Virus record (IMG/VR): IMGVR_UViG_3300047482_000019
Coordinates: 1-31,423 of that record
DNA from: a virus
Direction: 5' to 3' (one strand)
DNA: 31,423 nt
Shown: positions 8,640 to 31,423 of the stretch, piece after piece
How positions within the stretch are numbered: the stretch's first letter is position 1
How the letters are laid out: each line of letters opens with the position of its first letter
Translations under genes and position numbers: made by a program
The notes under the pieces: model-generated
The model's database searches: none
The model's input: only the letters and a program-made list of their open reading frames with translations
Told to the model about the DNA's origin: nothing

Positions 8640-11297
8640 TTATACCCCCGCCAGCCGTTGCTGAATCTTATAAGCGATCTGCTCTACATCCATGTTGTTG
8701 TTCACATTTTGGACGTAAACGTTTACCGTTGCGCCAGATCGCGCCCCGCTTCTGCCATCTTTCGCTTTTGGTTCGCCGGTGTCAGCACCGCCACCACCGA
8801 GCCAGCTTGGTAGAGACGGCAACGATGGTGCCCAACTCAATAGGCTCGATACCCACGCTGGCGTTGCTGGCGTCCAATTCAGTAATGTACTAATCCACCC
8901 AGGAGCATCGGGAAACTTCCAGCCGAAGATCCGACTCCAAATCGCAGCCAATTCGCCGCTAAAGTCAGGAAATGTCCATGCGAAAATCTGCGCCCATGTT
9001 GCCAGCAGCCCCTCGCTGAATTCGGGGAATGTCCAGGCTACCAGTGCCGAAACATCGCTAGGAGGATCAGGGAAAGCCCACGCCAACAGGCTAGTTACGG
9101 CTGTCGGCGGACTTGGGAATGTCCAGGCGACTAGCGTCCCAACTGTCGCCGGTGTATCAGGAAAGACCCACGCCAACAGGCTACTTATCCACGCAGGCGA
9201 CTGCATATTTATAAAAGCATCCTTGACGCTATCGAATATGCCACCCGCCCATGTCACTTTTGACACATTGGCTTCTGTGTCGTAAGTATTCTTGTATAAG
9301 CCCCACAGCACAGATGTGATTGAACTATCAGCATTATAGGTGTGACGGAACAACCCCCAAGCAACGTCGGTGATGCCAGTCGTTGATTCGTAATGACCGT
9401 GCCACACGCCCCAAAGCACGTTAGAGATTGACGATTCGGCTGTGTATTTGTTGGTGAACAGCCCCCACAGCACATCCGTGACGCCAGCCTTTGCCCCGTA
9501 GTCGCCAAAGAATAGCCCCCACGCTACATCGGTCACGGACGCATCAGCATTGTAAGTATTCTTGTATAAGCCCCACAGCACAGATGTAATTGCGCTATCA
9601 GCATTATAGGTGTTACGGTACAAGCCCCAGACAACATCCGTGATGCCAGCATTAGCCTCATAGTGTCCGTAGTATAGTCCCCACAGGACATTATTAATCG
9701 TCACGCCCGAATTATAATTGGCAGTATAGCGACCCAATCCCCAATCTACATCGACAATGCCAGCATCAGCATCGTATTTGAACCTGAACTTACCCTCGCC
9801 AGCGTTCCAGTCGATTTTTTGAATGCCAGCATCAGCGTCGTACACCCACGACACGCCACCGCCGCTATAGGTTGTCCAATCAACCTTCGTTACCTTCGAT
9901 TCAGCGTCGTACACCCACGACGCCAACCCACCGACTGCCCAGCCAATCCAATCGACTTTTGTTACTTTTGAAAGTGCGTCGTATGTGTATGTGAAGTCTC
10001 CCCAATCGACGGTCGTCACTTTTGTTGTAGCGTTATAGTTCGTCTCAGCGCCAGTCAATGCGCCAACAGCGCCAACACTAGCGGCAACCTTACCGCCGCC
10101 GCCCTCCGACACAACCGTGTAGAAGGCTTTGGCTTTTTCAGCAGCAGCACTAACTTTCTTCTCAATAGAACTAAACGCCTCTTCAATCGCTGGTAGAGCG
10201 CCATTGGCAACTACTAGCAGCGCATCAGTGAGAGGCGAGATCGCAACGGTAGCGCGCCGCCACATTCCAGTAAAAAAGTTACCAAACGTCTTGTATTTCT
10301 CTTGAAGCTTATCGGTTGCGCCTTCCATATCCTTCAGTGCTGTTTTCGTTAGTGAAACCGAATCAACGAACGAATCGCCTAGATCCTCGTATTGTGTACC
10401 GATAACAGCAGCGCCAGCCTGCATTCTAACCGTGGCGTCATCCGTCTTTCGCAGTGCGTCGGTAACGATTGTCCATGCGTCCGCTACCGTCATCGTTCCG
10501 TCCGCCAACCCACGCGTAATCTGGTCGGCGTTCAGACCTAGCATCTCAAGACCTTTGCGCGTTGTGTCGCTGCCGTCTTGAATTCTTAGCCGAAATTCCT
10601 TAAAAGCATCCGCAGCCTTATCAGTGCCAAGCATCCCGCCTTGTAGCCCAGACTCCATCAGACTAAAAAACTGTTCAGCCGAAGCGCCGCCATTGGAGAA
10701 TTGCGTACTATATTCACCAACGGTATCAAGAAAATCACCAGAGCGATCTAATCCTTTTTGATAGCCAGCCGCAATGAAGTCGAACGCTTGATCGGACGTT
10801 AAACCGAAATTTTCCATAAGCGTCTTGGCAGCGCTAACTGATTCATTGACTCCTGTGTCGAATGAATCACGTAGCGCAAGTGCTTTTTCGGTGATATTGA
10901 CCAAGCTTGGATCGCTGGCAGACAATTCCAACTGTTTTGTGACTTCACCAACAGCGACACCAACATCAGTGATTGACTCACCAAAGTTGTTACCGTAAAT
11001 CTGCTTGATTGCGCCGCCAAATTTCTCAGCTTCCTCAAGCGGTAAGCCTAAACTAGCCGCCATATCAGCAGTAGCCGTGCGCAGATCATTGGATACATTG
11101 AAAGCCCCGACGCCAATAGCTGCAACAGAGCCAGCCAGGGCAGTAGTTCCAGCTAAGGCAGCACCGCCCATCAGCTTTGACACAGTGCCACCTAAGCCAG
11201 ATGCCCATGCGGATGTCTTATTTTTGGCTGATTCTAGTCCACTAACCAATCTCTTGTCGTCAGTGGCGAGATAAACAATCGCGTCTGCTAATCTCAT
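8640..11297 (-). CDS. tail tape measure protein with two repeat blocks
   Basis: The 885-residue protein sets tail length by spanning the tail lumen. Residues 30-65 are a Gly/Ala-rich hydrophobic stretch, and 70-400 resemble the TP901-type tape measure core (A-T-A-D-M-A-A-S-L-G, A-A-K-T-L-M-E-N-F-G-L). Residues 419-683 contain tryptophan-centred repeats; from 539 to 683 nine Trp-Gly or Trp-Ala positions are spaced exactly 18 residues apart. Residues 703-830 contain a second repeat, A-W-x-F-P-x-x-P, first at 15 and then at 19 residues. The last 30 residues (T-V-N-V-Y-V-Q-N-V-N-N-N-M-D) are a typical tape measure end. The start overlaps the chaperone stop by ATGA. With the usual rule of about 0.15 nm per residue the tail would be about 130 nm, but only if the repeats are helical, which their sequence does not suggest. 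Confidence 0.9.
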   Translation of the reverse strand: MRLADAIVYLATDDKRLVSGLESAKNKTSAWASGLGGTVSKLMGGAALAGTTALAGSVAAIGVGAFNVSNDLRTATADMAASLGLPLEEAEKFGGAIKQIYGNNFGESITDVGVAVGEVTKQLELSASDPSLVNITEKALALRDSFDTGVNESVSAAKTLMENFGLTSDQAFDFIAAGYQKGLDRSGDFLDTVGEYSTQFSNGGASAEQFFSLMESGLQGGMLGTDKAADAFKEFRLRIQDGSDTTRKGLEMLGLNADQITRGLADGTMTVADAWTIVTDALRKTDDATVRMQAGAAVIGTQYEDLGDSFVDSVSLTKTALKDMEGATDKLQEKYKTFGNFFTGMWRRATVAISPLTDALLVVANGALPAIEEAFSSIEKKVSAAAEKAKAFYTVVSEGGGGKVAASVGAVGALTGAETNYNATTKVTTVDWGDFTYTYDALSKVTKVDWIGWAVGGLASWVYDAESKVTKVDWTTYSGGGVSWVYDADAGIQKIDWNAGEGKFRFKYDADAGIVDVDWGLGRYTANYNSGVTINNVLWGLYYGHYEANAGITDVVWGLYRNTYNADSAITSVLWGLYKNTYNADASVTDVAWGLFFGDYGAKAGVTDVLWGLFTNKYTAESSISNVLWGVWHGHYESTTGITDVAWGLFRHTYNADSSITSVLWGLYKNTYDTEANVSKVTWAGGIFDSVKDAFINMQSPAWISSLLAWVFPDTPATVGTLVAWTFPSPPTAVTSLLAWAFPDPPSDVSALVAWTFPEFSEGLLATWAQIFAWTFPDFSGELAAIWSRIFGWKFPDAPGWISTLLNWTPATPAWVSSLLSWAPSLPSLPSWLGGGGADTGEPKAKDGRSGARSGATVNVYVQNVNNNMDVEQIAYKIQQRLAGV
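8808..9191 (-). repeat. A-W-x-F-P repeats in the tape measure (15-19 residues)
   Basis: Residues 703-830 of the tape measure. Trp occurs at 710, 725, 740 and 755 (15 residues apart), then at 774 and 793 (19 apart), mostly in the form L-x-A-W-x-F-P. Regularly spaced aromatic residues are known in other tape measure proteins, where an 11-residue period has been described. The 15-residue period with Phe-Pro here is different. Confidence 0.8.
9249..10043 (-). repeat. 18-residue (54-bp) tryptophan repeats in the tape measure
   Basis: Residues 419-683. The unit is roughly Y-N-A-D-S-x-I-T-x-V-x-W-G-L-Y. Trp positions 539, 557, 575, 593, 611, 629, 647, 665 and 683 are exactly 18 apart; earlier units (432, 450, 474, 497, 519) are looser. 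A stretch near 9281-9340 recurs almost unchanged about 270 bp (five units) away near 9553-9612, so a five-unit block was itself duplicated. Confidence 0.85.
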
Positions 11298-12064: not shown

Positions 12065-12667
12065 TTAGGATGTAGCGTTAGCGGTTACTTTTTGGAATTT
12101 CAGCAGCCGTTGACCAATCGGCTTGCTCACATCTGCCAGCGCCTTGATCTGTAGCGGAATGCCGGTAGCTGCTTTCTTGGAGAATTCCAAGTTACCATTC
12201 AGCATTGCATTCGCTTTCCAAACGAACAGACGAACGGGGAACTGCACGCCAGCCGAATTAACATAGAGCGACTCAATCCCGAAAGCGTATTCGCTCACCA
12301 GCAGCTTACCGCCAGCGTTTACCTCAGTGAACCCTTTTTGACTAGCGCCAGCAGCCGTTGTCGTGACAGCGCCATCAAAAGCAAGCCCCAGGTTTACCCC
12401 CAGAGATTCAGCTAAAGTTGTCTCAATGGTCGCCTCTTCTTTGGATCGACCGCGCTTGACTGCAATCGTTGAGCTTTCGACCTCAATATCAAATAGCTCC
12501 TGATTGTAAGCAAACGTGACAGGCGTTAGCGTAGACCCCAAGCTCACCCAGCTACCGCCCCACGCCTGATCGTAGGCAATCGTTGTCTCACTAGGAATAG
12601 CCGCGCCAACAGGAGCGTAGTAGATTCGAGCAGGAGCAGCTAAAATATCAGCAACATTCACACTCAT
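12065..12667 (-). CDS. major tail tube protein
   Basis: The 200-residue protein sits after the tail completion gene (TAATG overlap, GAGGTG site four bases before ATG) and before the chaperone pair, the standard place of the tube protein. It starts S-V-N-V-A-D-I-L-A-A-P-A-R-I-Y-Y-A-P-V-G and contains E-L-F-D-I-E-V-E-S-S-T, a type of motif seen in phage tail tube proteins, and G-N-L-E-F-S-K-K-A-A-T-G-I-P-L near the end. A paralogue with extra domains is encoded at 16528-17958. No sheath gene is present, which supports a non-contractile tail. Confidence 0.75.
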   Translation of the reverse strand: MSVNVADILAAPARIYYAPVGAAIPSETTIAYDQAWGGSWVSLGSTLTPVTFAYNQELFDIEVESSTIAVKRGRSKEEATIETTLAESLGVNLGLAFDGAVTTTAAGASQKGFTEVNAGGKLLVSEYAFGIESLYVNSAGVQFPVRLFVWKANAMLNGNLEFSKKAATGIPLQIKALADVSKPIGQRLLKFQKVTANATS

Positions 12668-16527: not shown

Positions 16528-17958
16528 CTACGCTAATGGAACAGCGAACCCGCCAATCGTAGCGCTCGTGATCTTATTCCCGCTGTCTGTACTGAATGTC
16601 CCGTAGCGCAAGTTGTTGATAATCGTCGCATCAGCTACAGTCTGATTAGTCGTGACTTGAACATTGTTGTAGAAAAGCTGGAATGTGTTACCGGACGGGC
16701 GACGGATCTCAATCGCAGCATCTGCGACAAAAGTGCTTACGGCTGTAATCAGATTGGTGTAGACGCCGCTCACACACTTATCTAGATAAACATTGGTGCC
16801 ATCGTGATAAGCGATTAGGAAATTCTGCGGATTCGTCACGCTATCCAGATTAGCCACAGCGCCAACGTCGGTGCCAAACGCCAAGCTATTAGCCCGAACC
16901 GAAACGGTTGAGTTAGGCGAGCCGACAATAATAGTACGCATCAGTGATGGCAGTGACATAAGCTGCATCGAAGCATTGTCGATGCTTACCGTTGTTCCCG
17001 CTGACGTTGATCGGAATCCAGCCAGTGCCGTCGATGCCTGCCGTCCGGTATCCACGTAGCTGCCAACAGCGGTACGTGTCAGCCCAACCTGTGTAGTAGC
17101 GCCGTAGCGCGATGACACGCCACCACCTGTGAACGCCGTCACATCGAAGGCGTAGCGATACCAAGATCCAACCACTGCGACACTCTGCGTGAGATTGGAG
17201 TTAGCCGCTGCTGCCGTAGCCGTAGCTACACCACTGGCGATTGTCCACCCAGCGCCCTTTGTCCAATTCGTATCAGCAGCAAATGCGCCATTAGCAAATA
17301 GGTTACTGCCTAGCGTTGGCGTATTAAACGCCCTCCCGTTAGAGTCAATCGACCATGTTGCGCCAGCCCACTCGTAATCATTGATCCGCTGAATACGGAT
17401 CAACTTAGCGCCAACCGCTCTTGAATTATCATCAACAGATTCGATCCGAAGTGGGATACCAGTCGCGGCTTTTTTGCTAAATTCCAGGTTGCCGCCTAAT
17501 GTAGCCGTCGCCTCATGCAGAAAAACGCGGAATGGTGTTGATTCACCAAACTTGTCAACAATCAGCCCCTCGATACCAAATTGCCATTCAGCAACAGCAG
17601 TCGATCCCCCGGCATCAAGCGATGTAAAAGCTCTTTGTCCAGCGCCAGCCGCCGTACTGGTGACGTTTGCAGCAAAAGCCATGCCCAAATTTTCGCTGAT
17701 TGTTTCAGCCAGCGACGTTTCAATAACAATCTTTTCCTTTACAGCGCGTCTACCTACCGGCGTATAGGATTGCTCAACCTCGATGTCGTAAAACTCAACG
17801 TCACGAACCAGCGTGATCGGCGTGAGAGTCTCGCCCAGTTCCGTCCATGCGACTCCCCAATCGCCACCGTATGGAACGGTGAGCGCATCAGGTACGCTTG
17901 CGCCAACTGCCGCCCGAAATAATCGAGCAGGAGCCGCCATAATATCTGTTACTGCCAT
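16528..17958 (-). CDS. tail-tube paralogue with C-terminal carbohydrate-binding-like domains, in the head module
   Basis: Of 476 residues, the first 197 are plainly homologous to the tail tube protein at 12065-12667: A-A-P-A-R-L-F-R-A-A-V-G-A, E-F-Y-D-I-E-V-E-Q-S, and the 15-residue G-N-L-E-F-S-K-K-A-A-T-G-I-P-L is identical. The DNA under that stretch differs at synonymous positions, so the duplication is not recent. Residues 198-340 look like a galactose-binding jelly roll (W-T-K-G-A-G-W-T-I-A-S-G-V-A-T-A). Residues 340-476 look like a concanavalin/LamG-type sandwich (F-L-I-A-Y-H-D-G-T-N-V-Y-L-D-K). It is encoded between the portal-side membrane protein and the protease, not with tail genes. 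It may be a minor decorated tube ring, a neck or whisker protein, or a capsid decoration. Which of these is unknown. Confidence 0.7.
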   Translation of the reverse strand: MAVTDIMAAPARLFRAAVGASVPDALTVPYGGDWGVAWTELGETLTPITLVRDVEFYDIEVEQSYTPVGRRAVKEKIVIETSLAETISENLGMAFAANVTSTAAGAGQRAFTSLDAGGSTAVAEWQFGIEGLIVDKFGESTPFRVFLHEATATLGGNLEFSKKAATGIPLRIESVDDNSRAVGAKLIRIQRINDYEWAGATWSIDSNGRAFNTPTLGSNLFANGAFAADTNWTKGAGWTIASGVATATAAAANSNLTQSVAVVGSWYRYAFDVTAFTGGGVSSRYGATTQVGLTRTAVGSYVDTGRQASTALAGFRSTSAGTTVSIDNASMQLMSLPSLMRTIIVGSPNSTVSVRANSLAFGTDVGAVANLDSVTNPQNFLIAYHDGTNVYLDKCVSGVYTNLITAVSTFVADAAIEIRRPSGNTFQLFYNNVQVTTNQTVADATIINNLRYGTFSTDSGNKITSATIGGFAVPLA

Positions 17959-26632: not shown

Positions 26633-29419
26633 TTAGTGCATTGCAACGTGGTATTTCACCTCTTTGGCGATTCTGGCAGCTTCTAGCGATGTGTATCCTG
26701 CCTGTTCAGCCATGCGATAAGCTTCTCGACCTTTGATCCCCTGACGTTTGAAGTCAATGATTGTTTGCGTCATCTGCTTACGGAATTCCTCTTTTTCCGC
26801 CACTCGAATATCGGCATCCTTGCTTTGATCGATACGATCCAGCCAGGGCTTCAAGGTTAGTTTTGGTGAGAAGATATACTTCTCAATTTCTTCTAGCGTC
26901 CAACCGGGATAAATCGCCGCTAACGCTACTGTTCGGCGTTCTACCGCACGATTCACACGCTTTTCCGCAACGTTTAGCGCCTGCTCATTTTGCTTTTCCG
27001 CAGCAGCATAAGCATCCATCTCAGCTTGCGTCTGCATTTGCTCTAGCCGACGCTCTAATCGCTGCACACCGATCTTGTATGTCCGCGTGTTGGCGATGCG
27101 CTCGGAGAACTGAATTAGCGCATCATCGGCAATCGTGTATAACTTTGGCTTACGCGGGCAGTCTTGTTCATACTCGACAACATTCCAATCCTCTAGCTTG
27201 CGCAGTGCGACACCAACAGCAGATGGTTTCATACCGCGACGCTGTGCGATCTCAGTCTTGGTCGTGCCAGGATTCTCTAGCAAGTCAACCACTGTAATCA
27301 GACCGAAGAATCCTAACCCCGGCAACATCTCATCTAGCGAATCCGTTATCTTGCGATCATCGTCGCCAATCGTTGCAATCTTAGCTTGCTTCTTCTGAAA
27401 TCGTGACGTACCTCTAGCGAATGAGTCATCAGCTTTCATGCCGCCAAGACTAAATGTGATCTCGCCAGTTTTGTCGTCACTTTTGTCGTCATTAGATTGA
27501 ACACCATGATCTTTCTCACTGTGATCTATTATGGTGTTCAAAGTAGAGACGGCAAAATCTACTAAATCAACGACAAGCCCCGACTTATGGTCACTACTTT
27601 TGTCGTCACTTTTGTCGTCATTAGATTGAACACCATGATCTTTCTCACTGTGATCTATTATGGTGTTCAAAGTAGAGACGGCAAAATCTCCATCTTTATC
27701 CTTATCAGGTACAGGTAGATCGCAATTGAGCAAAACGCCATTGACCCGATCAATAAAGTTGCGTGCGGTTACATGACTCGCAACCGCTACCTTGACACCT
27801 TCCGTATTGGTGCATTCGGTGATTGTGCGTAACGATAGTTTTAGACCCTTAATCCGACCAGCTTTCTTGGCGTAATCTAAACCGTTGTCGTACAGCATCC
27901 GATCTGTGTTGCCTGTCCGGTATCCCCGTTTTGACTGCCGATCAACCGGAACAATCTTGCTCCAATCGGCATTCAACACTAACGCACGGTGCCGCTTTAG
28001 AAAGTCTTCCATGTCGCCGTGCGTCAAGATCCCTAATTCCCGACCAATCTCCAACGCAGCGTCTTCATAGTCGCCACCAAACTGGTAAGCCACAACCACA
28101 TCAAATGGTGAACGTGGTCGGTTGCTATCATCAGTATAGAGAACATCCGACGATGAATGATGCCAAGAACGATTGTTAGGGAAGATCGCCACACTGTCAG
28201 AATCACGACCAGGGCGACATAAGCGCCCGTTGCTGCCGTTGGTGTATCCAAACCGCAACAACTCATCCTTAATGGTGCGCGTAGCATTGTATTCAGCCAT
28301 AATGCGAATAGCGTAAGCGCTTAAGTTATCGCAATCAAGATCGATGTCATCACCGTTGTCGATCTTGATATAGGCGGGTGGCGTAACAGTTGTTTTCTTG
28401 CGCTTCTCTACAGGCTTATTGTTCGTTTCCTCAATCACCGGAAACAGGTCGATAATCTGATTAGCGGAGTAGGTCAGGTTAAGATTGAAATCAACGTAAC
28501 GAACCAGTTGCGGCTCAGGGTAGATTTTTTTGATATTCCAGCTACCAGGGAGGCGCAAGATACGTGCAAGGTCTTTAGCCGCAGGATCGCCGCCAACAAA
28601 CTGCGTCCATCGGCGTTGTAGACTCTTAGCGTAGTTCAGCGTCTCAACATCTGAGATTGAAATTGTTTCGTCAAGCAACCACACACCTTGAAAGCCGCCA
28701 CCGCTGAACCACCAAGCGCTAGGCTGAATTGGTAGGTTGCGGATATATTCAAAAGCCATCTGATTGTAGCGGTTCATGTCGCCAGCAAACACATCTTCCT
28801 TTGCTGCCTTGATCGACATATTCCAAACCGTCTTATCGCGTGCAGTGGCGTGTTCTGGCGATTCACGTAAGATACTATACTTTGCCTCAACCATATCAGT
28901 GGTTGGTTCTGCAAAATCCTTGCCGTCGAAGTCTGCAAAAACGCAATTAACAGCGTTGATCTGGTTGTTCTTGCCGCGGGTATAGGATTGAATATATTCA
29001 TCAGACTTGCCGACCAAATAAGACTTTTGGCGGTCGGCATCAGTAATCGACACAGCAGCGGGATTGATACAGAAGTAGGTATGCTTCTTCTGACCAGCAT
29101 TGATCCAGTGTAGTGGTAAGTATCCAGACTCTTCGACTGGAACCCACAATGATTCTTTGCCATTGCCCGACTTGCGACCGTTTGGCGTCCAGAAGTGGCG
29201 TAACGTACCACCTACATGCAGGCGATCCAGTAACTCACGCGACCGATCCAGCGTCCAAGCAACATCCGCTTTTTTGCTGACAAAATCACTATAGCTCTTG
29301 ACACCGTTCTTTTTTTCTGTTACAATCGATATATAACCGTCCATTTGGTAGTAGACGGTCTTGCCGTTCAGGGTTTGATAAGTTGCACTGCCTAGATTGA
29401 CAGTGGTAGGCTGTTGCAT
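26633..29419 (-). CDS. archaeo-eukaryotic-type primase with C-terminal winged helix
   Basis: Of 928 residues, about 110-310 form a primase domain of the AEP type: F-A-D-F-D-G-K at 161-167 with the metal Asp pair D163/D165, W-W-F-S-G-G-G-F-Q-G-V-W at 236-247, and D-P-A-A-K-D-L-A-R-I-L-R-L-P-G-S-W-N at 278-295. A second conserved region around L-C-R-P-G-R-D-S-D-S-V-A-I-F-P follows. Residues about 577-650 are a low-complexity linker carrying a duplicated 30-residue segment (palindromic DNA element). Next comes a winged helix at about 695-765 (T-K-T-E-I-A-Q-R-R-G-M-K-P-S-A-V-G-V), a coiled coil and a helical C-terminus. It probably makes primers for phage DNA replication. No helicase domain is visible, so the helicase would come from the host or from outside the window. 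Confidence 0.82.
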   Translation of the reverse strand: MQQPTTVNLGSATYQTLNGKTVYYQMDGYISIVTEKKNGVKSYSDFVSKKADVAWTLDRSRELLDRLHVGGTLRHFWTPNGRKSGNGKESLWVPVEESGYLPLHWINAGQKKHTYFCINPAAVSITDADRQKSYLVGKSDEYIQSYTRGKNNQINAVNCVFADFDGKDFAEPTTDMVEAKYSILRESPEHATARDKTVWNMSIKAAKEDVFAGDMNRYNQMAFEYIRNLPIQPSAWWFSGGGFQGVWLLDETISISDVETLNYAKSLQRRWTQFVGGDPAAKDLARILRLPGSWNIKKIYPEPQLVRYVDFNLNLTYSANQIIDLFPVIEETNNKPVEKRKKTTVTPPAYIKIDNGDDIDLDCDNLSAYAIRIMAEYNATRTIKDELLRFGYTNGSNGRLCRPGRDSDSVAIFPNNRSWHHSSSDVLYTDDSNRPRSPFDVVVAYQFGGDYEDAALEIGRELGILTHGDMEDFLKRHRALVLNADWSKIVPVDRQSKRGYRTGNTDRMLYDNGLDYAKKAGRIKGLKLSLRTITECTNTEGVKVAVASHVTARNFIDRVNGVLLNCDLPVPDKDKDGDFAVSTLNTIIDHSEKDHGVQSNDDKSDDKSSDHKSGLVVDLVDFAVSTLNTIIDHSEKDHGVQSNDDKSDDKTGEITFSLGGMKADDSFARGTSRFQKKQAKIATIGDDDRKITDSLDEMLPGLGFFGLITVVDLLENPGTTKTEIAQRRGMKPSAVGVALRKLEDWNVVEYEQDCPRKPKLYTIADDALIQFSERIANTRTYKIGVQRLERRLEQMQTQAEMDAYAAAEKQNEQALNVAEKRVNRAVERRTVALAAIYPGWTLEEIEKYIFSPKLTLKPWLDRIDQSKDADIRVAEKEEFRKQMTQTIIDFKRQGIKGREAYRMAEQAGYTSLEAARIAKEVKYHVAMH
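27469..27689 (-). repeat. 92-bp perfect direct repeat with inner palindromes inside the primase gene
   Basis: Bases 27469-27560 and 27598-27689 are identical, with a 129-bp period (43 codons). Each copy contains the 41-bp palindromic element (27499-27539 and 27628-27668) with arms GAACACCAT/ATGGTGTTC, and both keep the reading frame open. Each begins with TTTTGTCGTCAC followed by TTTTGTCGTC. A related third copy is at 2437-2487. Confidence 0.9.
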
Positions 29420-29505: not shown

Positions 29506-29550
29506 GAGCGCTGTGAGTGGGCTAAAACACACAGCGCTCTTTTCTTTTTT
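29506..29550 (+). terminator. plus-strand terminator facing no annotated gene
   Basis: GAGCGCTGTG (29506-29515) pairs with CACAGCGCTC (29530-29539), and TTTTCTTTTTT follows on the plus strand. On the minus strand there is no T-run after the stem. It therefore ends a plus-strand transcript, yet no plus-strand gene lies upstream; an antisense RNA against the start of the primase gene is one possibility. Confidence 0.65.
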
Positions 29551-29755
29551 ATTGGGCATACCACACTTGCCCAAGTTTTGCCATATCGCGCTCTAACTTC
29601 TCATCTAGAGCCGTGCGAATATACTCGCTGACATTGAACCCGAACCGGCTACCAAGTTTTTCAACTTCATCGATCACTGTTGGATCGATACGCACCGGAA
29701 CATACTTCTTTGCCACTTGCCGCTTTACTTCGATACCACACTCGTTGGATAACAT
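29549..29755 (-). CDS. ribbon-helix-helix (CopG/Arc-type) DNA-binding protein
   Basis: I choose the ATG at 29755 (68 residues), which has GAAAGG about eight bases upstream; an ATG at 29776 lies next to the operator and has no ribosome site. The fold is seen as K-Y-V-P-V-R-I-D-P-T-V-I-D-E-V-E-K-L-G: a basic strand then helix A, then the turn F-N-V-S-E-Y-I-R-T-A-L-D-E-K for helix B. RHH proteins bind DNA as dimers and are often autorepressors or partition/copy-control proteins. The inverted repeat at 29778-29809 just upstream is a good candidate operator. Confidence 0.8.
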   Translation of the reverse strand: MLSNECGIEVKRQVAKKYVPVRIDPTVIDEVEKLGSRFGFNVSEYIRTALDEKLERDMAKLGQVWYAQ

Positions 29756-29777
29756 ATTTGAACCTTTCGTATTCATG

Positions 29778-29809
29778 ACTGTAAAACTATCTGTGTTACA
29801 GTTTACAGT
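29778..29809. promoter_or_regulatory. operator candidate for the RHH protein
   Basis: ACTGTAAA (29778-29785) and TTTACAGT (29802-29809) are perfect inverted arms. Between them is an additional TTACAGT, so TTACAGT occurs twice in tandem (29796-29809). Repeated short half-sites just upstream of the gene are typical for RHH autorepressors. Confidence 0.6.
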
Positions 29810-29823
29810 AAAAAAAAGGCAAT

Positions 29824-29855
29824 GAAAAGGGTAGTTTTGCTGTCCTTTTTCTTTT
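29824..29855 (+). terminator. second plus-strand terminator-like hairpin
   Basis: AAAAGGGTAG pairs with CTGTCCTTTT through a five-base loop using two G-U pairs that exist only in plus-strand RNA, then TTTTTCTTTTTC. As with the hairpin at 29506-29550, no plus-strand gene precedes it. Confidence 0.4.
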
Positions 29856-30080
29856 TCTTAAATCTCCTTTCGCCCACATATTACATCTGTTCCGGCTGAC
29901 CCGCTAAATCCCAAATATGTAAATTAATGAAACGTAAGTCATTTGTCGGCTCTATACGTTCACCCTACGATTGCTATACGACTACTTTAGGTTGAGTCAA
30001 TCTATAGCGCAAATTCCGATCTGTGTAAAACTCGCTATTTTGCGCCCATCTTTGTTAGCGTTGTGTTAGCGTTTTCTGAT

Positions 30081-30109
30081 AAAAGAAAAGGTAGACTGCA
30101 TTGTCTACC
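30081..30109 (-). terminator. terminator after the membrane/wHTH gene
   Basis: GGTAGAC (30090-30096) pairs with GTCTACC (30103-30109), and on the minus strand TTTTCTTTT follows. It is 28 bases past the stop codon at 30137. Confidence 0.8.
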
Positions 30110-30136
30110 TATAGCAATATTCAGTTTGTTCAAATC

Positions 30137-31327
30137 CTACGCCGCAACAACTTGCGCAATCTGGTACTTGCTACCAGCCTTGACAATCCGACCATCAGCC
30201 ATTAGGCTATTCAGATAATTGTAGATATTACCGCGGCTACAAACACTGTCACCGCCAATCAACCGATGAATCTCAGTAGCGCCAAGTGCCAGATGCTCAC
30301 TGACAACATTGACAATCTGATCTGTCAGGCTGACACCCGCATTGACACTTTTGTCAGTGCTGACAGTTGGGTTGACAACTTCTGACACCTCTGACAAATC
30401 CTCTGACAGTTCTGACACCATCGCATTGACACTTTTGTCAGTGCTGACAGTTGGGTTGACAACTTCTGACACCTCTGACAAATCCTCTGACAGTTCTGAC
30501 ACCATCGCATTGACACTTTTGTCAGTGCTGACACTTGGGTTGACACTTTTTGTCACCTCTAACAAGCCAGCTAACACATTGTTACCACCTGTATTGTCAG
30601 CCCTGACAGGCTGATTGACACTTTTGTTGTCAGGGTTAACAACCATATTAGCCTGATTGACAATTCGACTATCAGGGCTGACAACCTCTGACACCATCGC
30701 ATTGACACTTTCTGACACTTTGACAACTGCATTGTCAGTCTGACTGTCAGTCGAATTGATTCTGTCAAAAGCGCGTGCCAGCTTTTTCTCAACGACTGTC
30801 ATAGCCATCTCGTTAATTCGATCCTGCATTGCCGAAAGATCAATATGACTAACAGCCTCATGGATCTTAGCGTCCATCTTTCGGTCAATATTCGCAGTAT
30901 CAGCAGCCTCAGCTTCTCGTTTTTTCTTTTGCGACGATTCAAACATCGCCGCAGCATAAGCCAGTAGTCCCTCGAAGATTAGCGGGAAGCCGTAGCCTTG
31001 CAACATCGACTTAGCAACAATTCCCCACGTCCCATTGGTGCATATCTGTTCTTGGTTGACATAATGGCATATAGACGAATCGTAGTAAGCGATTGATTGA
31101 ATTGTGCCACTCAATAGAGCAACGGCAACCACAGCGCCAGTCATCCATTGCAAAGTCGTCTTGTCCTTAAAATCGACTTTTGACAGCATAATAGCTACGC
31201 CGACCAACCCCAACGATAAGCCAGCCGCAACAGCGTATGTCGTGATCGCGCCGTGACCATGTGCCAGCCAATCCTTTATTGTGCCGAATGATCCGAACGC
31301 CACTAATAGCATTACGATATGGATCAA
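30137..31327 (-). CDS. membrane-anchored protein with repeat region and C-terminal winged helix
   Basis: The 396-residue frame starts at a TTG (31327) or an ATG (31312); neither has a strong ribosome site, and the frame is open back to a TAG near 31367. Residues 1-130 contain three or four hydrophobic spans (near 2-14, 28-48, 62-84 and 108-130), a topology reminiscent of DUF2637/SpdB-like plasmid proteins. Residues 130-190 are charged and helical (K-K-K-R-E-A-E-A-A-D). Residues 200-340 are low-complexity Val/Ser/Asn repeats, including a 28-residue unit (S-V-N-A-M-V-S-E-L-S-E-D-L-S-E-V) repeated exactly. Residues 345-396 form a winged helix (G-A-T-E-I-H-R-L-I-G-G-D, N-I-Y-N-Y-L-N-S-L-M-A-D-G-R-I-V-K). 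It could tether DNA to the membrane or regulate early genes. The DNA array inside its own gene may be its target. Function is unproven. Confidence 0.65.
   Translation of the reverse strand: MIHIVMLLVAFGSFGTIKDWLAHGHGAITTYAVAAGLSLGLVGVAIMLSKVDFKDKTTLQWMTGAVVAVALLSGTIQSIAYYDSSICHYVNQEQICTNGTWGIVAKSMLQGYGFPLIFEGLLAYAAAMFESSQKKKREAEAADTANIDRKMDAKIHEAVSHIDLSAMQDRINEMAMTVVEKKLARAFDRINSTDSQTDNAVVKVSESVNAMVSEVVSPDSRIVNQANMVVNPDNKSVNQPVRADNTGGNNVLAGLLEVTKSVNPSVSTDKSVNAMVSELSEDLSEVSEVVNPTVSTDKSVNAMVSELSEDLSEVSEVVNPTVSTDKSVNAGVSLTDQIVNVVSEHLALGATEIHRLIGGDSVCSRGNIYNYLNSLMADGRIVKAGSKYQIAQVVAA
30301..30801. repeat. dense array of TGACA/TGTCA motifs with helical spacing
   Basis: I count 39 exact TGACA or TGTCA pentamers from 30301 to 30801, against about one expected by chance. 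Between 30301 and 30541 there are 24 sites, with steps of 8-14 bases and a mean of about 10.4. The 84-bp unit 30343-30426 is repeated exactly at 30427-30510 and partly after 30511; each unit holds eight sites, that is 10.5 bp per site. The sites include tight dyads TGTCAGTGCTGACA at 30352, 30436 and 30520. They occur in two codon phases and both orientations of the gene that overlaps them. Confidence 0.9.
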
Positions 31328-31392
31328 TGTTTCAACCGTAAACAGATGAGCAATAAAATTCTTCTAGTGACCCGACAGTTTGAAGGGATTGG

Positions 31393-31420: not shown

Positions 31421-31423
31421 GAG

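Follow-up and report, generated by a model that had tools for sequence, protein, structure and literature searches.

A helically phased TGACA array within a phage gene, probably an intragenic replication origin

Why would a phage gene carry one five-base word dozens of times, in both orientations and in step with the DNA helix? We addressed this question in a virus record of 31,423 bases (the window, here taken at its full length), which contains terminase, portal, capsid and tape-measure genes and whose right end is cut at position 31423. We regard the window as a probable prophage of a Chloroflexota host because a xanthine-dehydrogenase-like gene at its left end has its best relatives in that phylum (57-59% identity). 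Among the structural genes, the tape-measure gene (8640-11297) contains long runs of a degenerate repeat (..VLWGLYKNTYNADASVT..) as well as runs of AWTFPDPP-like repeats, and two evidently related genes (12065-12667 and 16528-17958; MSVNVADILAAPARIYYAPVGA.. and MAVTDIMAAPARLFRAAVGA..) apparently encode a duplicated tail-tube-like protein. The sole large plus-strand gene of the phage part (24804-26051) encodes a 415-aa secreted-looking protein with a TP-rich linker, which by eye resembles glycoside hydrolases and may be a cargo gene.

The word is TGACA, with its inverse TGTCA, and all 39 sites of the array fall within a single minus-strand open reading frame:
30301-30801, both orientations: TGACA/TGTCA array of 39 sites with steps mostly of 9 and 12 bp; proposed iterons of a replication origin
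30338-30589: 84-nt unit with 8 sites, present as an exact pair followed by a degenerate copy; its length equals 28 codons and 8 helical turns, which preserves both frame and phase
30137-31327, minus strand: host gene of the array, 396 aa, with a TTG start or an internal ATG at residue 6
30140-30331, minus strand: C-terminal domain with the predicted order helix-helix-helix-strand-strand, as in a winged helix-turn-helix; candidate for reading the array
30968-31327, minus strand: hydrophobic N-terminus; three segments exceed the hydropathy threshold, a fourth is probable by eye, and a role as membrane anchor is proposed

Read on the coding strand, the array consists of 28 TGTCA and 11 TGACA, and the other 30.1 kb of the window hold 64 such pentamers, roughly the chance rate. 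The exact copies of the unit lie at 30338-30421 and 30422-30505, followed by a third at 74% (30506-30589), and eight sites in 84 nt amount to 10.5 bp per site. A single 44-bp step occurs within the array (30551 to 30595), with wider steps further on. The initial annotation had described about 39 pentamers in 500 bp and an 84-bp unit with eight sites at 10.5 bp each; the exact count is 39, and the unit is indeed found twice exactly.

This array, although it lies inside a coding region, is under DNA-level constraint. Synonymous permutation of the array region yielded a mean of 9.5 sites (sd 2.5, maximum 20, n=5000), and resampling with phage codon usage a mean of 3.1 (maximum 12), versus the 39 observed. 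With the duplicated unit removed, 25 sites were observed versus 6.2 by shuffling (maximum 16, n=20,000), and the non-duplicated stretch 30541-30801 alone has 14 versus 4.5 (maximum 11, n=20,000). Positions that could encode the word are realised as TGACA/TGTCA in 39 of 47 cases (83%) in the array, as against 39 of 444 (8.8%) in 12 other genes, and the same shuffle test found no excess of either pentamer in five other genes. Among all pentamers, TGACA shows the strongest enrichment in the array region (z 9.7). Selection is acting on the DNA itself, since the sites recur at 10.4-10.6 bp, fall in two codon frames and point in either direction. These results agree with the initial annotation, which had argued that codon usage is insufficient, naming synonymous shuffles as its own refuting test (which did not refute it), that the motif is read in several codon registers and also inverted, and that the array extends beyond the exact 84-bp duplication.

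The strongest period of the array is 10.4-10.6 bp, with a Rayleigh R of 0.77 in the dense block (25 sites) and of 0.67 over all 39, and permuted gaps match the observed phasing in 0.07% of 1500 trials. The earlier idea of one site per DNA turn on average is in keeping with this period; the individual steps are mostly 9 and 12 bp, with others of 8, 10, 13 and 14 bp, instead of a uniform 10.5. When consecutive steps are summed in pairs, 21 is the most frequent value. Since 21 bp corresponds to two helical turns and to seven codons, units such as the 84-nt repeat preserve the reading frame and the helical face alike.

The 396-aa protein comprises a hydrophobic N-terminus, a charged helical middle, a V/S/N/D-rich linker that coincides with the array, and a predicted C-terminal winged helix. 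The array extends up to the first predicted helix of this last domain, that is, through the linker beside the putative DNA-binding domain. The model of the C-terminal 64 aa has a mean pLDDT of 60, and Foldseek returned weak matches, mostly to winged-helix chains (best E 0.43); from this modest model, the domain is a probable winged helix. In a profile comparison, its alignment to O-like winged helices is confined to the surroundings of the recognition helix (probability 2%, P 0.022), and we treat this alignment as no more than a lead. The full-length model has a pLDDT of 42, with N-terminal helices of low confidence. A membrane-anchored winged-helix protein had been proposed from the outset, and to this extent the hydrophobic segments and the predicted domain are in keeping with it. 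No relatives of the protein were found in phages, plasmids, viral contigs or genome contigs, and in Pfam, PHROG and NCBIfam it matches no initiator family and has no N-terminal winged helix of the HTH_36/Phage_rep_O type. The true start of the gene is uncertain because an in-frame TAG just precedes a hydrophobic in-frame extension (KNFIAHLFTVET; 31328-31366), an arrangement that possibly reflects a non-standard start, a frameshift or a broken 5' end.

Together with its neighbours, the array gene is part of what looks, from gene content, like a replication module:
29777-30136, no strand: AT-rich non-coding stretch with a GC of 0.372, the minimum among the 777 tiles of 360 bp that cover the window; candidate region for unwinding
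29549-29776, minus strand: small CopG/ribbon-helix-helix-like repressor gene (phrog_7325, E 4e-4), between the array gene and the primase gene
26633-29419, minus strand: primase-like replication protein of 928 aa with a RepB_primase domain and an internal winged HTH

The AT-rich stretch lies about 165 bp from the array, and the start of the primase-like gene is 0.9 kb from the nearest array site. The primase-like protein matches RepB_primase (E 2e-4), the phrog_2478 DNA polymerase/primase (E 9e-9) and HTH_24 (E 1.5e-4), and its internal winged HTH, with HTH_24/MarR-like similarity, spans residues 713-744. It has no relatives in viral contigs, and 400 Chloroflexota genomes gave partial matches in 5, none with arrays. 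Neither a lambda-P-like loader nor a replicative helicase was recognised in the contig, which ends at 31423. A GC-skew change at the array, which the initial annotation had suggested as a check, is absent: the skew keeps its sign there. Two further repeats lie in this region. At the start of the CopG-like gene, ACTGTAAAAC / GTTACAGTTTACAGT repeats read from the sequence (29770-29815) are likely that gene's own operator, and the primase-like gene contains a 99-bp direct duplication (27462-27689, 97% identical) that encodes a repeated DFAVSTLNTIIDHSEKDHGVQSNDDKSDDK.

TGACA arrays are associated with replication genes in other phages. A first scan of viral contigs for four TGACA at steps of 9-14 bp gave at least 120 matches, most comparison scans being samples, and nine-base codon repeats made up about half of the matches listed. 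Raw counts of pattern matches are not evidence, because control words also reach at least 120 through such codon repeats, and the comparison was restricted to complex, frame-independent arrays and their neighbour genes. After removal of repetitive and redundant cases, 34 arrays were left among the matches listed, and 29 were examined. Among these matches, 19 of the 29 independent arrays have a replication gene within about 1 kb (L003, L007, L011, L019, L021, L027, L031, L032, L041, L049, L051, L053, L058, L079, L089, L095, L106, L114 and L119), drawn from the D5_N, VapE-like, Prim-Pol, BT4734-like, Toprim, AAA_25, DUF3987 and HTH_36/DnaT families; the other 10 have no recognised replication gene nearby. 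The 46 near genes of the matches listed are dominated by AAA_25 (9), Prim-Pol, D5_N and HTH_36, whereas portal, integrase and terminase are commonest among the 79 genes at least 2.5 kb away at the same loci. For the control word ACAGT, 25 near genes of the matches listed include one AAA_25, one Prim-Pol and one HTH_36, and frame-independent arrays among the matches listed number 15 for TGACA versus 8, 1 and 3 for three control words.

In most comparison arrays the conserved part is TGACA only, often with a preceding G. Across many unrelated phages, the sites alternate between steps of 9 and 11-15 bp in mixed orientation, and the array in the window has the same core, the same 9 and 11-15 bp steps and both orientations. 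Many of these phages carry the array in non-coding DNA beside a primase-helicase, not in an O-like gene. Three comparison loci compared by Megablast with named phages had no annotated relative, and our literature search found no TGACA, TGTCA or GTGACA arrays tied to iterons or origins. In seven contigs related to L095 (L022, L039, L048, L091, L092, L115 and L117), as in L095 itself, a BT4734-like_N gene has a TGTCACGGAG/TGTCACGG array at its start. In a Chloroflexota plasmid-like contig (L263, 1-9920), three non-coding TGACA clusters lie between two divergent sets of genes, among them those for a PriCT_2/DUF3987 primase-helicase and for membrane proteins; the contig also encodes a Dam methylase and, near the array, a membrane-AAA-HTH protein. 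The clusters sit near both ends of the linear record, a 57-bp step recurs in each, and the contig is probably a circle. Two other Chloroflexota pattern matches (L266 and L267), with only 4 sites apiece, were set aside.

Among the closest parallels to the window are arrays inside initiator genes. A mixed-orientation pattern scan returned 39 loci in all and placed arrays within HTH_36-matching genes of 170-260 aa (L505, L516, L519, L520 and L537), two of which also match Phage_rep_O, more weakly; the first scan had arrays inside HTH_36-type initiator genes at L011, L114/L047 and L049. These in-gene arrays come after the N-terminal winged helix, in the linker, with steps such as 9-14-9-13-9-15-9 and in two or three codon frames. 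L114 and L047 are near-identical from the gene start, which encodes the winged helix, to the end of the array, and lose their similarity shortly beyond it; winged helix and array therefore travel as one module. The HTH_36/DnaT-type arrays share with the window the TGACA word, mostly in both orientations, the 9 and 12-15 bp steps and the use of at least two codon frames. They differ in having 7-10 sites instead of 39, and their genes have no membrane segments and carry the helix on the opposite side of the array.

Binding of an initiator within its own coding region has precedent in phages lambda, P22 (gp18) and L (gp18), whose initiators are described as binding iterons there (PMC8022706, PMC7466680). 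These systems share with the window, as interpreted here, the binding repeats in the initiator's own gene, a nearby AT-rich region and adjacent replication genes. In the lambda O type, however, the iterons number 4-6 and measure 11-20 bp, several-fold fewer copies than the 39 pentamers described here; the winged helix is N-terminal, whereas that of the 396-aa protein is predicted at the C-terminus and accompanied by a hydrophobic N-terminus; a lambda-P-like loader takes the place of the RepB-type primase; and the proteins have no sequence similarity. Because helix position, family and hydrophobic N-terminus differ, we file the proposed reader as one that would work like lambda O, not as a member of that type. 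Plasmid origins of the RepA/RepB/TrfA type (oriV) have iterons that are direct repeats of about 17-22 bp located outside the gene. The window resembles them in its phased repeats, proposed to bind an initiator, and its AT-rich flank, and differs in having a short core, in both orientations, inside a gene. The putative membrane protein also recalls the phi29 p16.7 type, phage membrane proteins that bind DNA during replication, although p16.7 is not known to bind such an array in the gene that encodes it.

Taken together, our data favour the view that the array is an intragenic origin of replication, which the C-terminal winged helix of the gene's own product probably binds. The array would be the iteron cluster of the phage origin and, like that of lambda in gene O, would be embedded in coding sequence. 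The winged-helix protein, in many copies, would occupy the TGACA/TGTCA sites along one side of the double helix, roughly one per turn, with sites 9 bp apart and pairs of them recurring about every 21 bp. The bound protein would bend the DNA and melt the AT-rich stretch close by; there the primase, whose gene lies just downstream, and a helicase would be loaded, and the hydrophobic N-terminus would tether the complex to the membrane. By analogy with the in-gene arrays of other phages, the most likely reader is this winged helix, which the array gene itself encodes.

The main alternative reader is the internal winged HTH of the primase-like protein. In this version of the origin explanation, that domain or a helicase encoded outside the contig would read the array, and the membrane protein would merely host it. 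The many non-coding arrays beside primase-helicases elsewhere fit such an arrangement, as does the HTH_24/MarR-like similarity of the primase-like protein; yet it leaves the place of the array in a winged-helix protein's gene unexplained, and in-gene arrays elsewhere sit in the gene of a winged-helix initiator, which makes this version rather doubtful in our judgement. The array could instead be a centromere-like partition or membrane-attachment site, at which the anchored protein would cover the gene encoding it and keep the phage DNA attached to the membrane for segregation. A dense phased array and a membrane anchor would suit a tether, and Chloroflexota mobile elements bear other small membrane and HTH proteins (L266, and the membrane-AAA-HTH protein of L263). 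However, no ParA-like or TubZ-like NTPase was recognised among the genes scanned, a weak argument given that the contig ends at 31423, and the comparison arrays adjoin replication, not partition, genes, so that we consider a partition role unlikely.

An autoregulatory operator array, through which the protein would repress transcription across its own gene, draws on the fact that a probable winged-helix protein is encoded by the very gene it would bind. This role seems quite improbable: 39 sites deep in a coding region are far above the need of an operator, and promoter-like sites in the array region are no more frequent than in shuffles. Of the three roles entertained in the initial annotation, the comparison arrays beside or inside replication-initiator genes favour the origin. 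Least probable of all is that a low-complexity protein repeat grew by slippage and left the array as a by-product with no DNA role. Two exact 84-nt copies and a repetitive V/S/N-rich linker would be expected of such growth, and nine-base codon repeats yield similar-looking matches in other viral genes. The synonymous-shuffle tests contradict it, given the excess beyond the duplication, and so do the two codon frames, the two orientations and the share of encodable sites used (83% versus 8.8% elsewhere).

To our knowledge, phage origins have rarely been mapped beyond model systems, and Chloroflexota phages have hardly been studied. More tentatively than for the origin itself, and with considerable doubt, we suggest that helically phased TGACA arrays may be a recurrent, so far undescribed origin grammar across unrelated initiators, here fused to a membrane-anchored initiator, such that the origin is both written inside the gene of a membrane protein and tethered by it. 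If TGACA arrays do mark the origins of unrelated phages, the sequence by itself could suffice to predict where replication starts, in Chloroflexota phages as well, and the question would arise why unrelated initiators share one five-base core. A membrane-anchored initiator that carries its own origin would, moreover, allow the old problem of the link between phage replication and the membrane to be approached directly by genetics.
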